From Melioribacter roseus P3M-2 (GTDB taxonomy: Bacteria; Bacteroidota; Ignavibacteria; Ignavibacteriales; Melioribacteraceae): DNA of 64,000 bases. Position numbers and translations under genes: made by a program. Position 1 is the first letter of the stretch. Every line of letters begins with the position of its first letter. The stretch covers positions 3,109,688-3,173,687 of the forward strand of contig NC_018178.1 in NCBI RefSeq assembly GCF_000279145.1, given 5' to 3'. The notes under the pieces were generated by a model. The model worked only from the letters and a program-made list of their open reading frames with translations, had not been told where the DNA came from and searched no databases. Positions 3,794 through 19,063 of this stretch are shown here, piece by piece.

Positions 3794-4546
3794 TTACTTA
3801 GAAAATATGTAATTATGCTCATAATTTATAAGTACTGCGCGTCTCGGACCATGATAGACAAACAAACTTCCTGCCGCTACAGCTGAAGCAATAGCTTCAA
3901 AATGTGCTTTTCTAAAATCTTCATAATCATTCGCTCCGCCAAGGGCCACTACAGGAATGCTTACTGCCCGGGAAACCATTGTAATTAAATCCAAATCATA
4001 TCCCAGATAAGTGCCATCGCGATCTACAGATTGAATTACAATTTCTCCTGCTCCCTTTTCTTCCATAAGTTGAGCAAATTCAACCGGTGAATATTTCAAT
4101 TTTTTTTTACCATTCAGGAATACGGTTGTATACCTTCCGAATAAATTCTTTTTCACATCAATACAAACCACAATCGTAGAAGAGCCGAATTCTTCCGCTG
4201 CCTGACGGACAAAATCCGGATTTTCTGCAGCAATGGTGTTTAACACTACTTTTTCGGCTCCATGTTTCAAAATTTGCCGTATCTGATCCAGTGTCCTTAT
4301 TCCGCCCCCTACTCCAAATGGCATGTTGGCTTCATCGCCTACTTTATGAACAAAATCAAGAGGAATGCATCGCTTTTCCCGGCTGGCATTGATGTCCAGA
4401 AAAATCAATTCATCCGCTTTTTTGTCATTAAAAATTTTAACCGCATTAATCGGATCTCCAATGTAACGGAATTTCTTGAAACGGATGGACTTAACCAGTC
4501 CGAGATTCTTTAGAAGTAAGACAGGTATTATGCGTGGTCTGAACAT
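3794..4546 (-). CDS. wbuZ: HisF-like subunit for sugar amidation (WbuZ)
   Basis: The 250-residue TIM barrel begins FRPRIIPVLLLKNLGLV and includes GDPINAVKIFNDKKADELIFLDI and VCIDVKKNLFGRYTT. In histidine-pathway HisF the motif is CLDVK, with catalytic Asp11; here the matching stretch is VLLLK, so that Asp is Leu, while the second catalytic Asp (in VCIDV) remains. The loss is expected for WbuZ-type proteins that help pass ammonia to a sugar amidotransferase rather than form imidazole-glycerol phosphate. No ribosome binding site is visible: a 7-bp repeat array (4550-4598) begins 4 nt upstream of the ATG. It is normally adjacent to hisH; here a four-helix-bundle gene separates them. Confidence 0.88.
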   Translation of the reverse strand: MFRPRIIPVLLLKNLGLVKSIRFKKFRYIGDPINAVKIFNDKKADELIFLDINASREKRCIPLDFVHKVGDEANMPFGVGGGIRTLDQIRQILKHGAEKVVLNTIAAENPDFVRQAAEEFGSSTIVVCIDVKKNLFGRYTTVFLNGKKKLKYSPVEFAQLMEEKGAGEIVIQSVDRDGTYLGYDLDLITMVSRAVSIPVVALGGANDYEDFRKAHFEAIASAVAAGSLFVYHGPRRAVLINYEHNYIFSK

Positions 4547-4549
4547 GTT

Positions 4550-4598
4550 CTGGTAACTGGTGACTAGTTACTGGTTATTAGTAAATAGTAATTGGTTT
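4550..4598. repeat. Left heptamer array of S23 locus A
   Basis: Seven consecutive 7-bp units follow one another without gaps: CTGGTAA (4550-4556), CTGGTGA, then CTAGTTA, CTGGTTA, TTAGTAA, ATAGTAA and TTGGTTT (4592-4598). The consensus is about CTGGTNA. The array starts 4 nt from the hisF start codon and leads toward the S23 gene stop at 4633. The array on the other side of the S23 gene (5044-5085) is its reverse complement in consensus. Confidence 0.8.
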
Positions 4599-4632
4599 AG
4601 TTTTTTATTTGTTTTATGTCGTTATTTAATCA

Positions 4633-4992
4633 TTATTTAATGGATTTAATTAATCCTTGTAGAATTTTCAATATCTGTGTTATTTTATTAATTAGTTCAT
4701 TATAATTCTCATTGGACAGGTATTCTAAATTTCTTGCAATTTGAATTTGCGTTTCAGGTTCGACTGCTGAACCAAGCGAAACATAAAGAAATTGTCTGAA
4801 TTCCCGCGAATGCCTTCTCGCAGAACCTTCAGCAATATTGGATGGAATAGATATAGCAGCTTTTCTCATTTGAGAAACCATACCGTACATTTCTTCCTTA
4901 GGAAAAGCAGTGGTCAATTTATACACTTCTGTAACCAATTGCATTGCATATTGATAAACATCCAAATCCTTATGCGTCCTAACTTTACTCAT
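4633..4992 (-). CDS. Four-helix-bundle protein (S23 / 23S rRNA intervening-sequence family)
   Basis: The 119-residue protein has the hallmark phrases KDLDVYQYAMQLVTEVYK, MVSQMRKAAISIPSNIAEG and FLYVSLGSAVEPETQI of the S23 family. These small basic four-helix bundles were first seen in 23S rRNA intervening sequences and are related to the Avd protein of diversity-generating retroelements. Their role outside those settings is not established. The gene sits alone between hisH and hisF, which are normally adjacent, and is bounded by inverted heptamer arrays at 4550-4598 and 5044-5085. No ribosome binding site is evident. It is about 30-40% identical by eye to the second copy at 17013-17384. Confidence 0.85.
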   Translation of the reverse strand: MSKVRTHKDLDVYQYAMQLVTEVYKLTTAFPKEEMYGMVSQMRKAAISIPSNIAEGSARRHSREFRQFLYVSLGSAVEPETQIQIARNLEYLSNENYNELINKITQILKILQGLIKSIK

Positions 4993-5043
4993 TAAAAATT
5001 ATGAGTTTTTCAAATTTTTCATAGTGCTAAACAAGCTGTAAGT

Positions 5044-5085
5044 TATCATCCACCATTTACCAATTACCAGTCACAAGTCACAAAA
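5044..5085. repeat. Right heptamer array of S23 locus A
   Basis: Six 7-bp units run here: TATCATC (5044-5050), CACCATT, TACCAAT, TACCAGT, CACAAGT and CACAAAA (5079-5085). Read on the minus strand they become ACTGGTA-like units, the same heptamer as the left array at 4550-4598. The array overlaps the end of hisH: the hisH stop TGA (5071-5073) and its last codons lie inside the repeat, so the repeat appears to have supplied the C terminus of that protein. Confidence 0.8.
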
Positions 5086-5688
5086 ATTCTTCAACACCTC
5101 CATCCCCGCATCATGACTCTTTTCCGGATGAAATTGCGTGCCATAAATATTATCCCTATGAATAGCTGAGACAAATTCATAATCGTAAACGGTCGTCATC
5201 CAAATATCTTTGGGATCATTGCATTTAAGATGATAGCTATGAACAAAATAAAACTCATCTGTTTCCCTGATTCCACGGTCTAAAGAATTGAAATTCACAA
5301 CTTTGACCTGGTTCCAACCCATGTGGGGTACTTTATATTTTATTTTGTCGGAAACCCGGAAACGAATCGCTTCCGCATCGATCCAGCCCAGGCCTTCGGC
5401 ATTTCCTTCTTCGCTGAACCGGCAAAACAATTGCGTCCCTAAACAAATCCCCAGTATGGGAACTTTGTCTTTTAGTACTTTCCGATTGAGTATTGCCAGC
5501 AAATTCATCTGGCGGATTTTTTCCATGGCGGCTTTGAAATGACCAACTCCCGGTAAAATGAGCTTATCGGCCTTTTCAATTTCTGTTATATTGGAAGTTA
5601 TCAAACTGTTTACACCCAGTTTTTTTAGCCGCTTTTCAATGGAGCGGAGATTGCCCATACTGTAATCTATAATAATAATAAAACTCAT
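5071..5688 (-). CDS. hisH: HisH-like glutaminase for sugar amidation
   Basis: The 205-residue class I glutamine amidotransferase has nucleophile Cys82 in GICLGTQ and His187/Glu189 in QFHPEKS, with the N-terminal DYSMGNLRSIEKRL typical of HisH. It should release ammonia from glutamine for transfer through the HisF-like partner to an N-acetyl sugar amidotransferase. It lies 6 nt after one amidotransferase gene (5695-6846). The last residues, CDL and the stop, fall within a 7-bp repeat array, so the natural C terminus may have been altered slightly. A primary histidine-synthesis role is less likely, as no other his gene is nearby. Confidence 0.88.
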   Translation of the reverse strand: MSFIIIIDYSMGNLRSIEKRLKKLGVNSLITSNITEIEKADKLILPGVGHFKAAMEKIRQMNLLAILNRKVLKDKVPILGICLGTQLFCRFSEEGNAEGLGWIDAEAIRFRVSDKIKYKVPHMGWNQVKVVNFNSLDRGIRETDEFYFVHSYHLKCNDPKDIWMTTVYDYEFVSAIHRDNIYGTQFHPEKSHDAGMEVLKNFCDL

Positions 5689-12200: not shown

Positions 12201-13554
12201 CTTAGTTGAAATTATTTTCGAGAGACTCCGCATAAATTAAGCTACCTTTGTTTGATTTAATCCTAATTTTGTTTTTAATGCATCTCTAAGTAAGTATAAT
12301 TTTTTATAATTGTGTATCCTCCTCAATCGTGATTCTACTTCTATCAAACCCATTGCAATCCATCTTGCCAACATATCCGGCGATTTCCAGCTTTTTATTT
12401 TTCTTAAATACCGCGCCAGTTTTGAATTGACATTTTCTATCGCATTGGTCGTTGATAACGATCTACCTAATTCAACTGCTAATCCTAATCTATGTAACGT
12501 TAAGGTCTCTTCTAACCCTTCTCTTAATGAGTTTGCCGCCGAACGGTTCTTTTTTTCCAATTAATTCAATATTTCCATAAGTTTGTTTTTCGCATCTTCA
12601 TATGTCGGTTCTCTATAGGCTGATTGCATTCTATAGCGGTAATATTCCTGGCCTTTTTCGTAAAGTTAGCTGACAACATTTTCCCTTTTATGCCAATTAC
12701 ATCTCTGAATTAAACAGTATTTGCCAAATGTCTCTTTTACTGCTTTGCTTAAGCCTTTAGAACCATCTAAGACGCATAAAAGTCCTTCCTCAAACTTAAA
12801 ATTTCTATCAAGTAAATCTTTCAGCAACCCTTTAACTGCTCTTGAGTTCTCTGTAGTCGATTGTATAAATCCCAATAATAGCTTATCTCCGGCTATAGTT
12901 ATGCCCATTGCTATTACTATTTGTTCTCTTGATAAATACTTCCCGTCTATGAGCAATGCCGTAAAATCGTAATTAGATAAATCTCTTTTTTCATAAGCTT
13001 CTAATTCCTTGGAACTCTCCTCTATAAATTTTCTGCTTATTGATGATTGACTTAGTCCAAAACTTTCAGCTATGGTTTTGCTTAATTTCCCGTAGTCCTT
13101 CTGGCTTAGTCCCAACAAGATGCTTTTTATCATCTCTTCTCTCGGACTCTCTTGTTCTTTTAATTGGCTGTAAATGTCATTGTTTTCGACTCTTTGGCTA
13201 TAATTATCTTTATATCTTGGTACTTCTATTGGGATTTTCTCATCTCCTATTTTTATGCTTCCCGGATTATAACCCCAGCGGTTATATCTGCCTGACTCCG
13301 GCTTTTGTCGACTATATCTTTCTCCGCATTTTTTTCTATGTCTTCTTGCATTAAATTTGTCGCTACGATTCTTAACATTTCTGCATAATCTTGGAATATG
13401 TTAAGTTGTTCTTCTATTCCTAAATTTTGGAACCATTCCAGATTTTTGTTCCTATTATTTGTATTTTTCATGTGAGACTCCTTTTAGTTTTTTTAGTTGC
13501 CTAAACCAAAAATTACTAATTTTTTAGGAGTCTCTCTTTTTATTTTCAACTAAG
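12201..13554. mobile_element. Degenerate IS256-family insertion sequence
   Basis: The element is bounded by imperfect inverted repeats. The left end begins CTTAGTTGAA (12201) and contains GAGAGACTCC (12220-12229). The right end, read on the minus strand, begins CTTAGTTGAA (13554) and contains GAGAGACTCC (13536-13527). Inside lies a broken IS256-type transposase. No clear 8-9 bp target duplication flanks the ends, which fits an old insertion with rearranged flanks. The right flank falls in a truncated duplicate of wbpD. Confidence 0.75.
12237..13471 (-). pseudogene. IS256 (mutator) family transposase, inactivated
   Basis: The reconstructed protein of about 410 residues matches IS256-type DDE transposases: LLIDGKYLS (first Asp), CVLDGSKGLSKAV (second Asp), the zinc-like QRCNWHKREN, and TTNAIENVNSKLARYLRKIK (Glu). 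It is broken three times. There is a frame change at an A7 run (plus-strand T run 13329-13335), where the next frame gives GERYSRQKPESGRYNRWG. TAA stops follow at 12666-12668, where the family has VVSYL, and just before 12560. The two nonsense codons are in one frame with clear homology on both sides, so the copy cannot act on its own. Confidence 0.85.
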
Positions 13555-14347: not shown

Positions 14348-14350
14348 AGT

Positions 14351-15349: not shown

Positions 15350-15351
15350 CT
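15307..15351. repeat. Half composite repeat at the 3' end of the GIY-YIG gene
   Basis: TGTCATTCTGAGAAG, hairpin GTCCCGCTGCAAGCGGGAC and ACGAAGAATCT. The last two bases form part of the GIY-YIG stop codon (TAG on the minus strand, 15350-15352). The opposite end of the gene carries AGATTCTTCAGAATGACA (15643-15660), the inverted counterpart. Confidence 0.7.
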
Positions 15352-15634
15352 AATACCATTCTTTACTTAGGTCCTTCCATTCAGGATTTTCTTTTTCAAT
15401 TAATTCTATTTTCTTTTTTCTTAGCCATCCTTTAATTTGTTTTTCTCTTTCAATGGCTTTTTTGACATCATTAAATTCTTCGTAATAAATTAACTTTGTA
15501 ATGTTGTATTTACTTGTGAATCCAGGCATTAATTTATTTTTATGTTCATAGACTCTTCTTATCAAATTATTTGTAATGCCTGTATAGAGAGTTTTACTTT
15601 TGTTTGTCATTATGTAAACATAATAACTTTTCAT
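15350..15634 (-). CDS. Small GIY-YIG nuclease-family protein
   Basis: The 94-residue protein has YYVYIMTNKSKTLYTGITNN (GIY-YIG variant YVY-YTG), then the R and H of LIRRVYEHKN and the Glu region YYEEFNDVKKAIEREKQIKG. This is the UPF0213/YhbQ-like single-domain group. Members are predicted structure-specific endonucleases, but many have no known role. The gene lies between inverted ends of the local two-hairpin repeat (15307-15351 and 15643-15660), with its stop codon inside one end and its start 9 nt from the other. That makes it look like cargo of the repeat. Confidence 0.85.
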   Translation of the reverse strand: MKSYYVYIMTNKSKTLYTGITNNLIRRVYEHKNKLMPGFTSKYNITKLIYYEEFNDVKKAIEREKQIKGWLRKKKIELIEKENPEWKDLSKEWY

Positions 15635-15944: not shown

Positions 15945-16035
15945 TATTACAAAAAATTACCAAGATTACAAAATTGCGAATTGACAAGATTGGCAAATTA
16001 CCAAGAACTTCTAAACTCCCAAACCCCAAAACCAA
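15945..16035. repeat. Degraded ATTACCAAG-type array downstream of wbpB
   Basis: Units ATTACCAAG, ATTACAAAATT and ATTGACAAG are followed by TACCAAGAACTT and CTCCCAAACCCCAAAACC. The same order and orientation recurs upstream of wbpA (18910-19063), so the wbpA-S23-wbpB block is bracketed by direct copies. Confidence 0.6.
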
Positions 16036-16970: not shown

Positions 16971-17012
16971 TTTAGGGGTTAGGGGTTAGGGATTAGTTGT
17001 TAGGGGTTAGTG
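16971..17012. repeat. Left heptamer array of S23 locus B
   Basis: Six gapless 7-bp units: TTTAGGG (16971-16977), GTTAGGG, GTTAGGG, ATTAGTT, GTTAGGG and GTTAGTG (17006-17012). The array ends exactly at the S23 stop codon (17013-17015) and begins 4 nt from the wbpB ATG. Its inverted partner lies at 17426-17460. The unit differs from that of locus A (CTGGTNA). Confidence 0.82.
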
Positions 17013-17384
17013 TCATGATTTGTCGGATTTTGTTTTTAATGAATTTATTAGTCCGTTTATCATTTTTCCTATTTCTTCTAATTCTTGTAAATAATTTTCA
17101 TAGTCAGTTTTTGATATATAATTCAAATCTTTTGTTAATAATAACAAATACACTACTTCCGAAACTGAGCCGCGTGCAATAGTCAGAAATTTAATATAAT
17201 CTTTGGTTGTGTATCTTCCAAAACCTTCCGCAATATTGGTTGGTATTGATATAACAGCTCTTAATAACTGTTCTGTAATTCTGAATTTCTCATCTTTTGG
17301 GAAGGATTTTGTTAACTCATAAATATTCAGAACTAATTGATGAGCCTTCTGCCATACATGTAAATCCTGGAATTTACTTACCAT
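17013..17384 (-). CDS. Four-helix-bundle protein (S23 family), second copy
   Basis: The 123-residue protein has FQDLHVWQKAHQLVLNIYEL, EQLLRAVISIPTNIAEGFGR and FLTIARGSVSEVVYLLLL, the S23 signature. It lies between wbpA and wbpB, which are usually adjacent. Both gaps are filled by 7-bp arrays in inverted orientation (16971-17012 and 17426-17460), the same arrangement as the copy at 4633-4992. Function is unknown; a nucleic-acid-binding role is plausible from basic residues and from the related Avd protein, but this is inference. Confidence 0.86.
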   Translation of the reverse strand: MVSKFQDLHVWQKAHQLVLNIYELTKSFPKDEKFRITEQLLRAVISIPTNIAEGFGRYTTKDYIKFLTIARGSVSEVVYLLLLTKDLNYISKTDYENYLQELEEIGKMINGLINSLKTKSDKS

Positions 17385-17425: not shown

Positions 17426-17460
17426 CCCACAAATCCCCAGTCCCTGATCCCTAGTCCCTA
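17426..17460. repeat. Right heptamer array of S23 locus B
   Basis: Five 7-bp units: CCCACAA (17426-17432), ATCCCCA, GTCCCTG, ATCCCTA and GTCCCTA (17454-17460). On the minus strand these are TAGGGAC-like units, the same family as the left array. The array begins 1 nt after the wbpA stop TGA (17462-17464). Confidence 0.8.
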
Positions 17461-17461
17461 A

Positions 17462-18835
17462 TCAAGCCTTAAACACATTCCCCTCGTGCAGTCCTTTAAT
17501 TTTAAATGCATTGCGGGTATCGAGAATCAATCGGGCATGTTTGCGAATAAATGTGTAATCGTAGTCGTCATGGTCTGTTGCAAGCAGAACCAAATCATAA
17601 AGTTTTATAGTGTCTTTTCTCAGTTCAACAGAATGCATGTCGAATTTATATTTTCTTGTGGGCGGCAGCTTTGGTACATAGGGATCGTTGTAATCGATTT
17701 CCGCGCCGCGTTCCCGCAACAGTTCGATTAATTTTAATGAAGGCGATTCTCTCATATCATCAACATTCTTTTTGTATGCAACGCCCAGTATTAAAATTTT
17801 ACTTCCTTTGATCGCCTTGTAATTTTCGTTTAATACTTCTATAGCTCTTTCAACTACGTAATAAGGTTGAAACGTATTTACTTCGCCCGCCAGTTCGATG
17901 AATTTGGTATTGATTTCATATTCGCGAGCTTTCCATGTCAGATAAAACGGATCGATCGGAATGCAATGCCCGCCGAGACCCGGACCCGGATAAAACGCCT
18001 GAAAGCCGAACGGTTTTGTTTTAGCGGCGTCTATCACTTCCCATATATCGATATTCATCTTTTCGAATACAACCTTCAACTCGTTTACAAGCGCGATATT
18101 GACGGAACGATAAATATTTTCAAGGAGTTTCGCCGCTTCAGCCACGCGCGGAGACGATACGGGCACCGTAGTTTTTACAATCTTGTTATACAACGCTACC
18201 GTTATCTCTCTGCAGCTTTCGGTCACTCCTCCCACAATTTTTGGTATTGTGCTCGTAGTAAAATCTTTATTGCCGGGGTCTTCTCTTTCCGGACTGAACG
18301 CCAGAAAGAAGTCCTTGCCGACGGTGTAAGAATCAGGTACCGGGGATTTGGGATTAGGGGTTAGTGTATTTTGAACATGCGGCGCCGATTCGAATAACGG
18401 CAATAAAATTTCTTCGGTCGTACCGGGATACGTTGTGCTTTCGAGCGTTATCAACTGTCCTTTCCGTAAGTGTTTTTGTATTGTTTCAGCCGTCGCTTTA
18501 ACGTATTTCATATCCGGTTCGCGATGCTCATCCAGAGGAGTGGGAACGCAAATAATAACTGCGTCGCATTCTTTCAATTTTGAAAAATCCGAGGTAGCTT
18601 TGAATTTCTTTTTCTTGATAATATCTTTAATCAATTTAGAATCGATATGTTTGATATAACTTTTTCCTTCGTTCAATAAAGGTATCTTGTTTTCATCGAC
18701 GTCGAAACCGATAACTTCGAATCCGTTATTTGCAAATGCAAGAGTAAGAGGCAAACCGACATATCCCATACCGATAATGCCGATTACCGCTTTTCCGTTT
18801 TCAATTTTTTCAAGAAGTTCTTTTTTGAAATGCAT
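17462..18835 (-). CDS. wbpA: UDP-N-acetyl-D-glucosamine 6-dehydrogenase (WbpA) with repeat-derived insertion
   Basis: The 457-residue UDP-sugar dehydrogenase has NAD site GIIGMGYVGLPLTLAFANNG, CVPTPLDEHREPD, AFSPEREDPGN, catalytic Cys291 in GPGLGGHCIPIDPFYL, and AYKKNVDDMRESPSLKL. It oxidises UDP-GlcNAc to UDP-GlcNAcA, the first step of the route. Residues about 152-169 (HVQNTLTPNPKSPVPDSY) are extra compared with the usual ES-xGLKVGKDFF spacing. They are encoded by a short heptamer array (18343-18370) of the same type as in the intergenic regions, inserted without breaking the frame. The start at 18835 is supported by family length; the leader and promoter lie far upstream. Confidence 0.9.
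   Translation of the reverse strand: MHFKKELLEKIENGKAVIGIIGMGYVGLPLTLAFANNGFEVIGFDVDENKIPLLNEGKSYIKHIDSKLIKDIIKKKKFKATSDFSKLKECDAVIICVPTPLDEHREPDMKYVKATAETIQKHLRKGQLITLESTTYPGTTEEILLPLFESAPHVQNTLTPNPKSPVPDSYTVGKDFFLAFSPEREDPGNKDFTTSTIPKIVGGVTESCREITVALYNKIVKTTVPVSSPRVAEAAKLLENIYRSVNIALVNELKVVFEKMNIDIWEVIDAAKTKPFGFQAFYPGPGLGGHCIPIDPFYLTWKAREYEINTKFIELAGEVNTFQPYYVVERAIEVLNENYKAIKGSKILILGVAYKKNVDDMRESPSLKLIELLRERGAEIDYNDPYVPKLPPTRKYKFDMHSVELRKDTIKLYDLVLLATDHDDYDYTFIRKHARLILDTRNAFKIKGLHEGNVFKA
18343..18370. repeat. Heptamer array inside wbpA, in frame
   Basis: Units GGGATTT (18343-18349), GGGATTA, GGGGTTA and GTGTATT (18364-18370). They match the intergenic TTAGGGA family and encode the peptide NTLTPNPKSP on the minus strand. 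Confidence 0.72.
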
Positions 18836-18909: not shown

Positions 18910-19063
18910 ATTACCAAGATTACAAGATTACCAAGATTACAAGATTACCAAGATTACCAAGATTACAAGATTACCAAGATTACCAAGATTACCAAGATTC
19001 CAAGATTACAAGATTGCAAATTACCAGGAACTAAGAACCCCAAAACTCCCAAACCCCAAAACC
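18910..19063. repeat. Tandem ATTACCAAG / ATTACAAG array upstream of wbpA
   Basis: About a dozen near-perfect units alternate between 9 bp (ATTACCAAG) and 8 bp (ATTACAAG), followed by ATTGCAA, TTACCAGGAACTAAGAAC and CTCCCAAACCCCAAAACC. A degraded copy in the same orientation is downstream of wbpB (15945-16035). The period is too short, and spacers are lacking, so it is not a CRISPR array. Confidence 0.8.

Follow-up and report, generated by a model that had tools for sequence, protein, structure and literature searches.

An S23 gene between inverted heptamer arrays at a hisH-hisF junction of Melioribacter roseus: probably one copy of a widespread family of small mobile elements

Introduction

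How does a gene for a small four-helix-bundle protein come to lie, framed by tandem heptamers, in the junction between hisH and hisF? The question is raised by a locus of Melioribacter roseus P3M-2 that is part of the window, as we call the whole stretch of 64,000 nucleotides that was analysed. S23/IVP proteins were discovered in rRNA intervening sequences and are still without an assigned function (PMC4990558); for heptamer repeats, the published descriptions offer no mechanism by which they spread (PMC4679880, PMC4692102). The sequence comparisons presented here suggest that the gene and its arrays are probably one copy of a widespread family of mobile elements of 0.4-0.6 kb, which consist of an S23 ORF and inverted array ends. 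If the link between protein and repeats holds, one element family would explain both, and it may account for the heptamer repeats that are scattered over many bacterial genomes. Since each S23 clade has its own repeat unit, the family would also constitute a natural experiment in protein-repeat co-evolution.

The insert between hisH and hisF

The insert and the two cistrons next to it comprise the following features.

3794..4546, minus strand: hisF paralogue, cistron downstream of the insertion site
4550..4598, minus strand: inverted array 3' of the S23 gene, seven CTGGTNA-type heptamers, ending 3 nt short of the hisF ATG
4633..4992, minus strand: gene for an S23 / 23S_rRNA_IVP four-helix-bundle protein of 119 aa (profile matches; relatives 2GSC and 2RLD)
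about 5042..5083, minus strand: array 5' of the S23 gene (gene sense), six heptamers, taking in the hisH stop; lag-7 score 15 in the 160-nt flank (L002)
5071..5688, minus strand: hisH paralogue, cistron upstream of the insertion site; orthologous empty junctions in L110 and L111

All three genes are on the minus strand, and the gaps between hisH and S23 and between S23 and hisF consist of heptamers throughout. The units of the left array are CTGGTAA CTGGTGA CTAGTTA CTGGTTA TTAGTAA ATAGTAA TTGGTTT and those of the right array, which are of the reverse complement type, TTATCAT CCACCAT TTACCAA TTACCAG TCACAAG TCACAAA. The first-pass annotation of this DNA had described seven CTGGTNA units to the left and six reverse-complement units to the right of the S23 gene, and these are seen in the sequence. 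It had also stated that an array supplies the hisH stop codon, which is borne out by the TGA at 5071-5073 within the first array unit, and that the arrays fill both junctions, which holds as well, except that the array on the hisF side ends 3 nt and not 4 nt from the start codon. The sole ORF between the arrays is S23; unlike an insertion sequence, the insert encodes no transposase or recombinase of its own. The two cistrons belong to a second paralogue set located in a surface-polysaccharide cluster and are not the canonical his operon copy; another HisF is encoded elsewhere in the genome.

A scan of the whole 64 kb at lag 7 (28 positions) revealed four strong places, each with S23-type heptamers, namely the two hisH-hisF arrays, a TTAGGGG array at a second S23 gene and a solo CTAATCC array at 14348. 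The same scan at lags 4-6 and 10-12 found no strong places in the window.

Other S23 elements and solo arrays in the same genome

The genome (3.30 Mb, one contig) contains three full S23 genes and one weak match (36 bits), the flanks of which are without arrays. The second S23 gene, which the first-pass annotation had missed, lies 12 kb from the first and has the same anatomy.

16971..17011, minus strand: inverted downstream array of the second element, TTAGGGG, 4 nt ahead of the next ATG
17013..17384, minus strand: S23 gene of the second element, 123 aa (PF05635, E 1.6e-42)
17432..17463, minus strand: upstream array of the second element, AGGGAYT type, overlapping the ugd stop codon
14348..14403, plus strand: solo CTAATCC array, the unit of the second element, without S23 gene and reaching into the 3' end of an acyltransferase ORF
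18340..18367, plus strand: solo TTAGGGR array within the ugd coding sequence

The third S23 gene (L003) is flanked by inverted ATTACCAAG-type arrays made of 9-mers. Arrays also occur away from S23 genes: TTAGGGR, the unit of the second element, is found at about 20 further places in the genome, a count for which the reversed-pattern control gives no baseline, as it matches the same arrays in another phase, and ATTACCAAG arrays at about four. The TTAGGGR solo arrays that were examined are single and not inverted. CTGGTNA arrays are confined to the hisH-hisF S23 gene.

Several other repeats were observed in this part of the window. Solo ATTACCAAG-type arrays at 18910-19026 and about 15948-16010 are each followed by a similar AAACTCCCAAACCCCAAAACCA tail, and between 13700 and 19400 interspersed repeats of the forms CATTCTGAGGAGTCCCGC...GGGATGACGAAGAATCTG and GAGATACTTCCCCCGCC...GGCGGGGTCAGTATGACA lie around a GIY-YIG gene (15350-15634) and next to several solo heptamer arrays. 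At 12237-13133, remnants of a transposase of the Mutator/IS256 type, broken up over two frames, were recognised by eye.

How general the arrays are

Do other S23 genes carry such arrays? S23 loci were drawn from 58 Ignavibacteria-level relatives and from other phyla, the genes being called with a profile of our own, and an array was called at a lag-7 score of at least 9 in a 160-nt flank. Among 118 S23 genes, picked among the better-scoring matches, 56% have a strong period-7 array in a flank, as compared to 2% for shuffled sequences and 11% for control genes. Counted by side, arrays were found upstream in 41% and downstream in 41% of these genes (shuffled about 1%; 44 control genes 7% and 5%, respectively), and on both sides in 25% versus 0%. 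Lags of 4-6 and 10-13 remain at background in the S23 flanks, with a small excess at 8 and 9. The lag-7 signal was found again in an independent sample of 27 loci from elsewhere in the Bacteroidota, with an array on either side in 48% and a match between the arms in 59%. S23 genes are present in 116 of 148 sampled Bacteroidota genomes, and S23 heptamer arrays also occur in Cyanobacteriota, Planctomycetota, Chloroflexota, Pseudomonadota and others; a search for S23 in phages found none.

S23 genes have a strong preference in orientation. For 90 genes with both neighbours close, 80 are situated between two co-directional genes and a single one is antisense to both neighbours; 88 of the 90 share the direction of their upstream gene, and the median gaps are 60 nt. 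The insertions are often located at the stop codon of the upstream cistron. An exception to the sense orientation is found on a Nostoc edaphicum plasmid.

At the hisH-hisF junction itself, two relatives (G052, G056) have the hisF start within a few nucleotides of the hisH stop, so that the cistrons abut without an insert, as the first-pass annotation had expected of hisH and hisF. Neither a lack of the lag-7 signal at other S23 genes nor relatives that share the S23 gene at this site with unrelated flanks were seen. The proposal that gene and arrays form a unit inserted between two cistrons is supported by the empty junctions and by the generality of the lag-7 signal. In a further genome (L113, G020) the hisH-hisF junction contains a decayed S23 unit together with other repeats, resulting either from recurrent insertion or from an old shared one.

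Arrays follow the S23 lineage

For pairs of S23 genes at non-homologous sites, the median array similarity is 11, which is background, as long as the proteins are less than 50% identical, and reaches 22 at 70-80% identity. The nearest array match of the window's S23 is found in a Sphingobacteriaceae-labelled MAG (L034), where an S23 protein of 62% identity is flanked by the same TRGTNA units in another gene cluster. The arrays are thus locus-specific, as the first-pass annotation had anticipated, but they are carried along with the S23 lineage and not derived from the target site. Formation of the arrays from target-site sequence had been suggested by the hisH end and was rejected, since arrays at unrelated sites are the more alike the more closely their S23 proteins are related.

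A unit of 7 bp is not universal, and its length depends on the S23 clade: one clade has 9, that of the third S23 gene of the M. roseus genome 8-9, another 10-12 or 6, and the rest have 7. Over 79 arrays the general 7-mer reads A-G-W-N-N-T-Y, and the first three positions are the most conserved within arrays.

Empty sites and copies at unrelated sites

Does the unit move? One case is an insertion with TCAGAAT arrays on a plasmid of Trichormus variabilis (L161), also found in Scytonema, which is missing from plasmids of Microchaete, Aulosira, Nostoc linckia and N. carneum at 97.5-97.9% identity. The empty site reads AAAAAGTAATTAACAAATAAATATG and the filled site AAAAAGTAATAAATCAG...S23...TTCTTTGTAATTAACAAATAAATATG; empty plasmid sites at 97-98% identity carry no array. 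Further filled and empty pairs are found in Calothrix (L159) and in Nostoc (L196, L200 and L204 versus L198 and L199). In Aulosira (L195), another such pair, the element sits in the 3' end of the preceding coding sequence and supplies it with a new stop. Moreover, the elements of L161, L195 and L196 occupy unrelated sites and are 82-83% identical (for example L161:1448-1863 with L195:1451-1866), and the homology stops at the outer edges of the arrays. The unit shows both marks of a mobile element, being present or absent at an otherwise conserved site and having homologous copies elsewhere, in unrelated positions. Inserts bounded by arrays can also have unrelated cores (L196:846-984, L200:1687-1820 and L196:1686-1855, the latter inside an S23 coding sequence).

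Target-site duplication is inconsistent: one site has GTAAT, another an ambiguous TTCTA, and three others have none. A 12-bp target duplication at the nested insert in L196, suggested by a BLAST overlap, was not upheld when the letters were read.

Two related observations were made at other cyanobacterial loci. In Picosynechococcus PCC 7003 (L194, 1440-1895) a type III-B CRISPR operon has an S23 element between cmr2 and cmr3, a site that is empty in the PCC 7002 plasmid. On a Brasilonema plasmid (L189, near 1300-1349) inverted heptamer arms surround GGAAACCCGCCCACGGCGCTGCCTCC, an unrelated short cyanobacterial repeat, at the L161 insertion site.

It could be imagined that the arrays are independent, ordinary heptamer repeats of the STRR type that arise by slippage, and that S23 genes insert or survive in them. 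Heptamers without S23 are common (PMC4692102, PMC4679880), and unit numbers vary among close relatives. This explanation is nevertheless strongly disfavoured and we give it very little probability, since 1) the nearly identical empty sites lack an array; 2) copies at unrelated sites are homologous up to and including the arrays, and no further; 3) array identity tracks S23 identity at unrelated sites; and 4) the arrangement is inverted and not direct.

Empty, filled and decayed sites are also found at the nuoC-nuoD junction. In 30 relatives many of these junctions are empty, including that of the M. roseus genome, eight are filled and four contain relics, which consist of the S23 3' end and the downstream array. 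The filled copies form one S23 clade (support 98/93), suggesting a single old insertion with later losses; the site being largely of such an origin, its empty junctions are in part deletions. Vertical inheritance with losses at this junction, together with purifying selection on the S23 protein, could also be taken to mean that S23 belongs to the host operons and regulates itself through the repeats, being inherited vertically and often lost, with mobility of minor importance. We regard this as quite improbable. Copies within one genome occupy operons unrelated to each other, sites are empty in near relatives, conjugative plasmids have acquired the element, and element and heptamer are common to the MAG L034 and the window, across phyla. 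Mobility of the array-bounded unit across many bacteria is well supported by the comparison of sequences.

Inverted arms: co-change and folding

In 70% of 121 loci the upstream flank matches the reverse complement of its own downstream flank above the cross-locus 95th percentile, compared to 16% for a match in direct orientation. A clear arm match is absent in about 30% of the loci, some of which are decayed and some of which have other periods. The two arms change together. For nine orthologous nuoC-nuoD insertions the units have diverged from genome to genome, but each upstream arm still fits its own downstream arm better than other arms (18.4 versus 12.6, permutation p 0.0006), and at one locus (L011) both arms now consist of alternating AGATTTG and AGACACG units. 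At 97% identity, Trichormus and Scytonema differ in their upstream arrays by precisely two units.

Are the arms kept complementary to fold in RNA? Under such an explanation the unit would be an RNA-processing insert, the arrays being stems and not ends for mobility, and cleavage by RNase III would separate the cistrons without harm. There is a precedent in the Coxiella IVS, in which the S23 ORF is located in the loop of a 28-bp stem with upstream heptamers and RNase III cleavage (PMC4990558). In the window, the predicted RNA fold of 4545-5085 (minus strand) has the arrays as closing stem and the S23 ORF in the loop (-121 kcal/mol, z -4.0), and the sense orientation in operons and the co-change of the arms are also what would be expected. 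However, the mismatches between arms show no excess of G-U pairs (143 versus 131), solo arrays and array pairs without S23 exist, and RNA processing accounts for persistence of the insert, not for its arrival at new sites. Selection for a sense-RNA stem via G-U pairs was rejected on the first of these grounds, and the coupling of the arms looks like DNA-level template switching or selection by S23 on both arms. As the whole explanation, an RNA-processing insert seems rather unlikely to us; it is compatible with the mobile-element reading as a second layer.

The S23 protein and candidate movers

The S23 protein of the window matches PF05635 (E 2.7e-39, 134 bits versus a cut-off of 33.8) and TIGR02436 (E 1.6e-37, 128 bits versus a cut-off of 24), and its relatives with solved structures are 2GSC, which is XCC0516 of Xanthomonas campestris (E 4e-25), and 2RLD. 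A pentameric structure has been reported for the former (PMC4990558). Comparison of element copies from unrelated sites gives a dN/dS of about 0.1 for S23, suggesting that the protein is functional for the element or the host.

Which enzyme could move the element? Avd of diversity-generating retroelements belongs to the same four-helix-bundle superfamily, and the window's S23 scores below the cut-offs of the Avd profiles (DivGenRetAVD 23.8 versus 80; bAvd, PF22296, E 8e-7, 29.9 versus 40 bits). RVT_1 is absent from the M. roseus genome. Of 58 genomes searched, 35 lack it, among them a complete one that has 19 S23 genes. A resident reverse transcriptase was rejected as mover, as RVT_1 is missing from most S23-rich genomes and shows no correlation with S23 number (rho 0.13). 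The number of Y1 transposases correlates with the number of S23 genes over the 58 Ignavibacteria-level genomes (rho 0.53, and 0.45 after genome size; DDE_Tnp_1 control 0.09), a correlation that is exploratory, the genomes not being phylogenetically independent. As 19 of 20 Y1 loci have no arrays, the Y1 transposase was rejected as mover and stays a lead only.

Proposed mode of action

How might an element act that consists of one small protein and its arrays? In the mobile-element reading, which we prefer, the comparisons show that the whole unit is gained at junctions that are empty in relatives and that arrays also move or spread without the gene. Pentameric S23 may bind the array repeats, probably in a hairpin or foldback form of one strand, and could bring the two array ends together. 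As the element encodes no enzyme for cutting and joining, these steps would fall to an enzyme of the host, or a resident one, that acts in trans. Slippage, and template switching from one arm to the other, would then alter the length of the arrays and the identity of their units. The sense bias could be explained most simply by a need for read-through transcription and by the harmlessness of inserts between cistrons; alternatively, capture into RNA or transcribed single strands may be responsible. We infer that S23 acts as specificity factor that recognises the arrays, the chemistry being left to host enzymes; it is the co-inheritance of protein and arrays that suggests binding.

A wider proposal, for which the chances appear evenly balanced, is that S23 represents a new class of mobile elements without catalytic enzyme of their own, in which the protein recognises, and perhaps helps to generate, clade-specific arrays. 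The heptamers of cyanobacteria, Xanthomonas and Bacteroidota would then be ends, relics and non-autonomous copies, and rRNA IVSs would be members residing in 23S rRNA.

Comparison with known systems

S23 elements closely resemble the rRNA IVS of Coxiella burnetii, in which an S23 ORF in sense orientation is looped within terminal inverted repeats over about 430 nt, preceded by two or three tandem heptamers, GACAGAT, the number of which varies between strains (PMC4990558). The first-pass annotation had known of no description that joins S23 proteins and heptamers; this is nearly correct, the exception being the same paper, which does not generalise its finding (PMC4990558). A general link was not found in the open-access literature searched, most subscription papers and preprints lying outside. 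IVSs are located in helices of 23S rRNA and are excised by RNase III, whereas the units described here lie between protein cistrons, in the window between hisH and hisF paralogues. These S23 units end in complete inverted repeat arrays, and non-autonomous derivatives of them exist.

The arrays also resemble the STRR, GGGNATC and TAACTGA heptamers of cyanobacteria, Xanthomonas and Beggiatoaceae, whose 7-bp units likewise combine a conserved core with variable positions and for which inverted pairs have been reported in Xanthomonas (PMC4692102, PMC4679880). These repeats were described without gene or mechanism, and S23 is unmentioned in either paper (PMC4692102, PMC4679880). Gapless heptamers with a conserved core, as they characterise STRRs, are equally found in the S23 arrays, and GGGTGTA and GGGAGTA arrays flank the S23 genes of Calothrix and Nostoc plasmids. 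Tiny dispersed repeats of Nostoc, the subject of work by Elhai et al. in 2008, are reportedly often embedded in tandem heptamers, and it would fit if they were cargo of S23 elements.

REPIN/RAYT and other MITEs are similar in that short inverted units are spread in trans by a protein encoded elsewhere (PMC3116915). RAYT is a Y1 transposase, whereas S23 has no nuclease fold, and the ends of the S23 elements are evolving tandem arrays, not fixed palindromes. Among eukaryotes, foldback transposons such as FB and Galileo have terminal inverted repeats that are internally tandem and vary in length between copies; they are of kilobase scale and use a P-type transposase. S23 elements are alike in their tandem-repetitive inverted ends and differ from them in host, scale and transposase.
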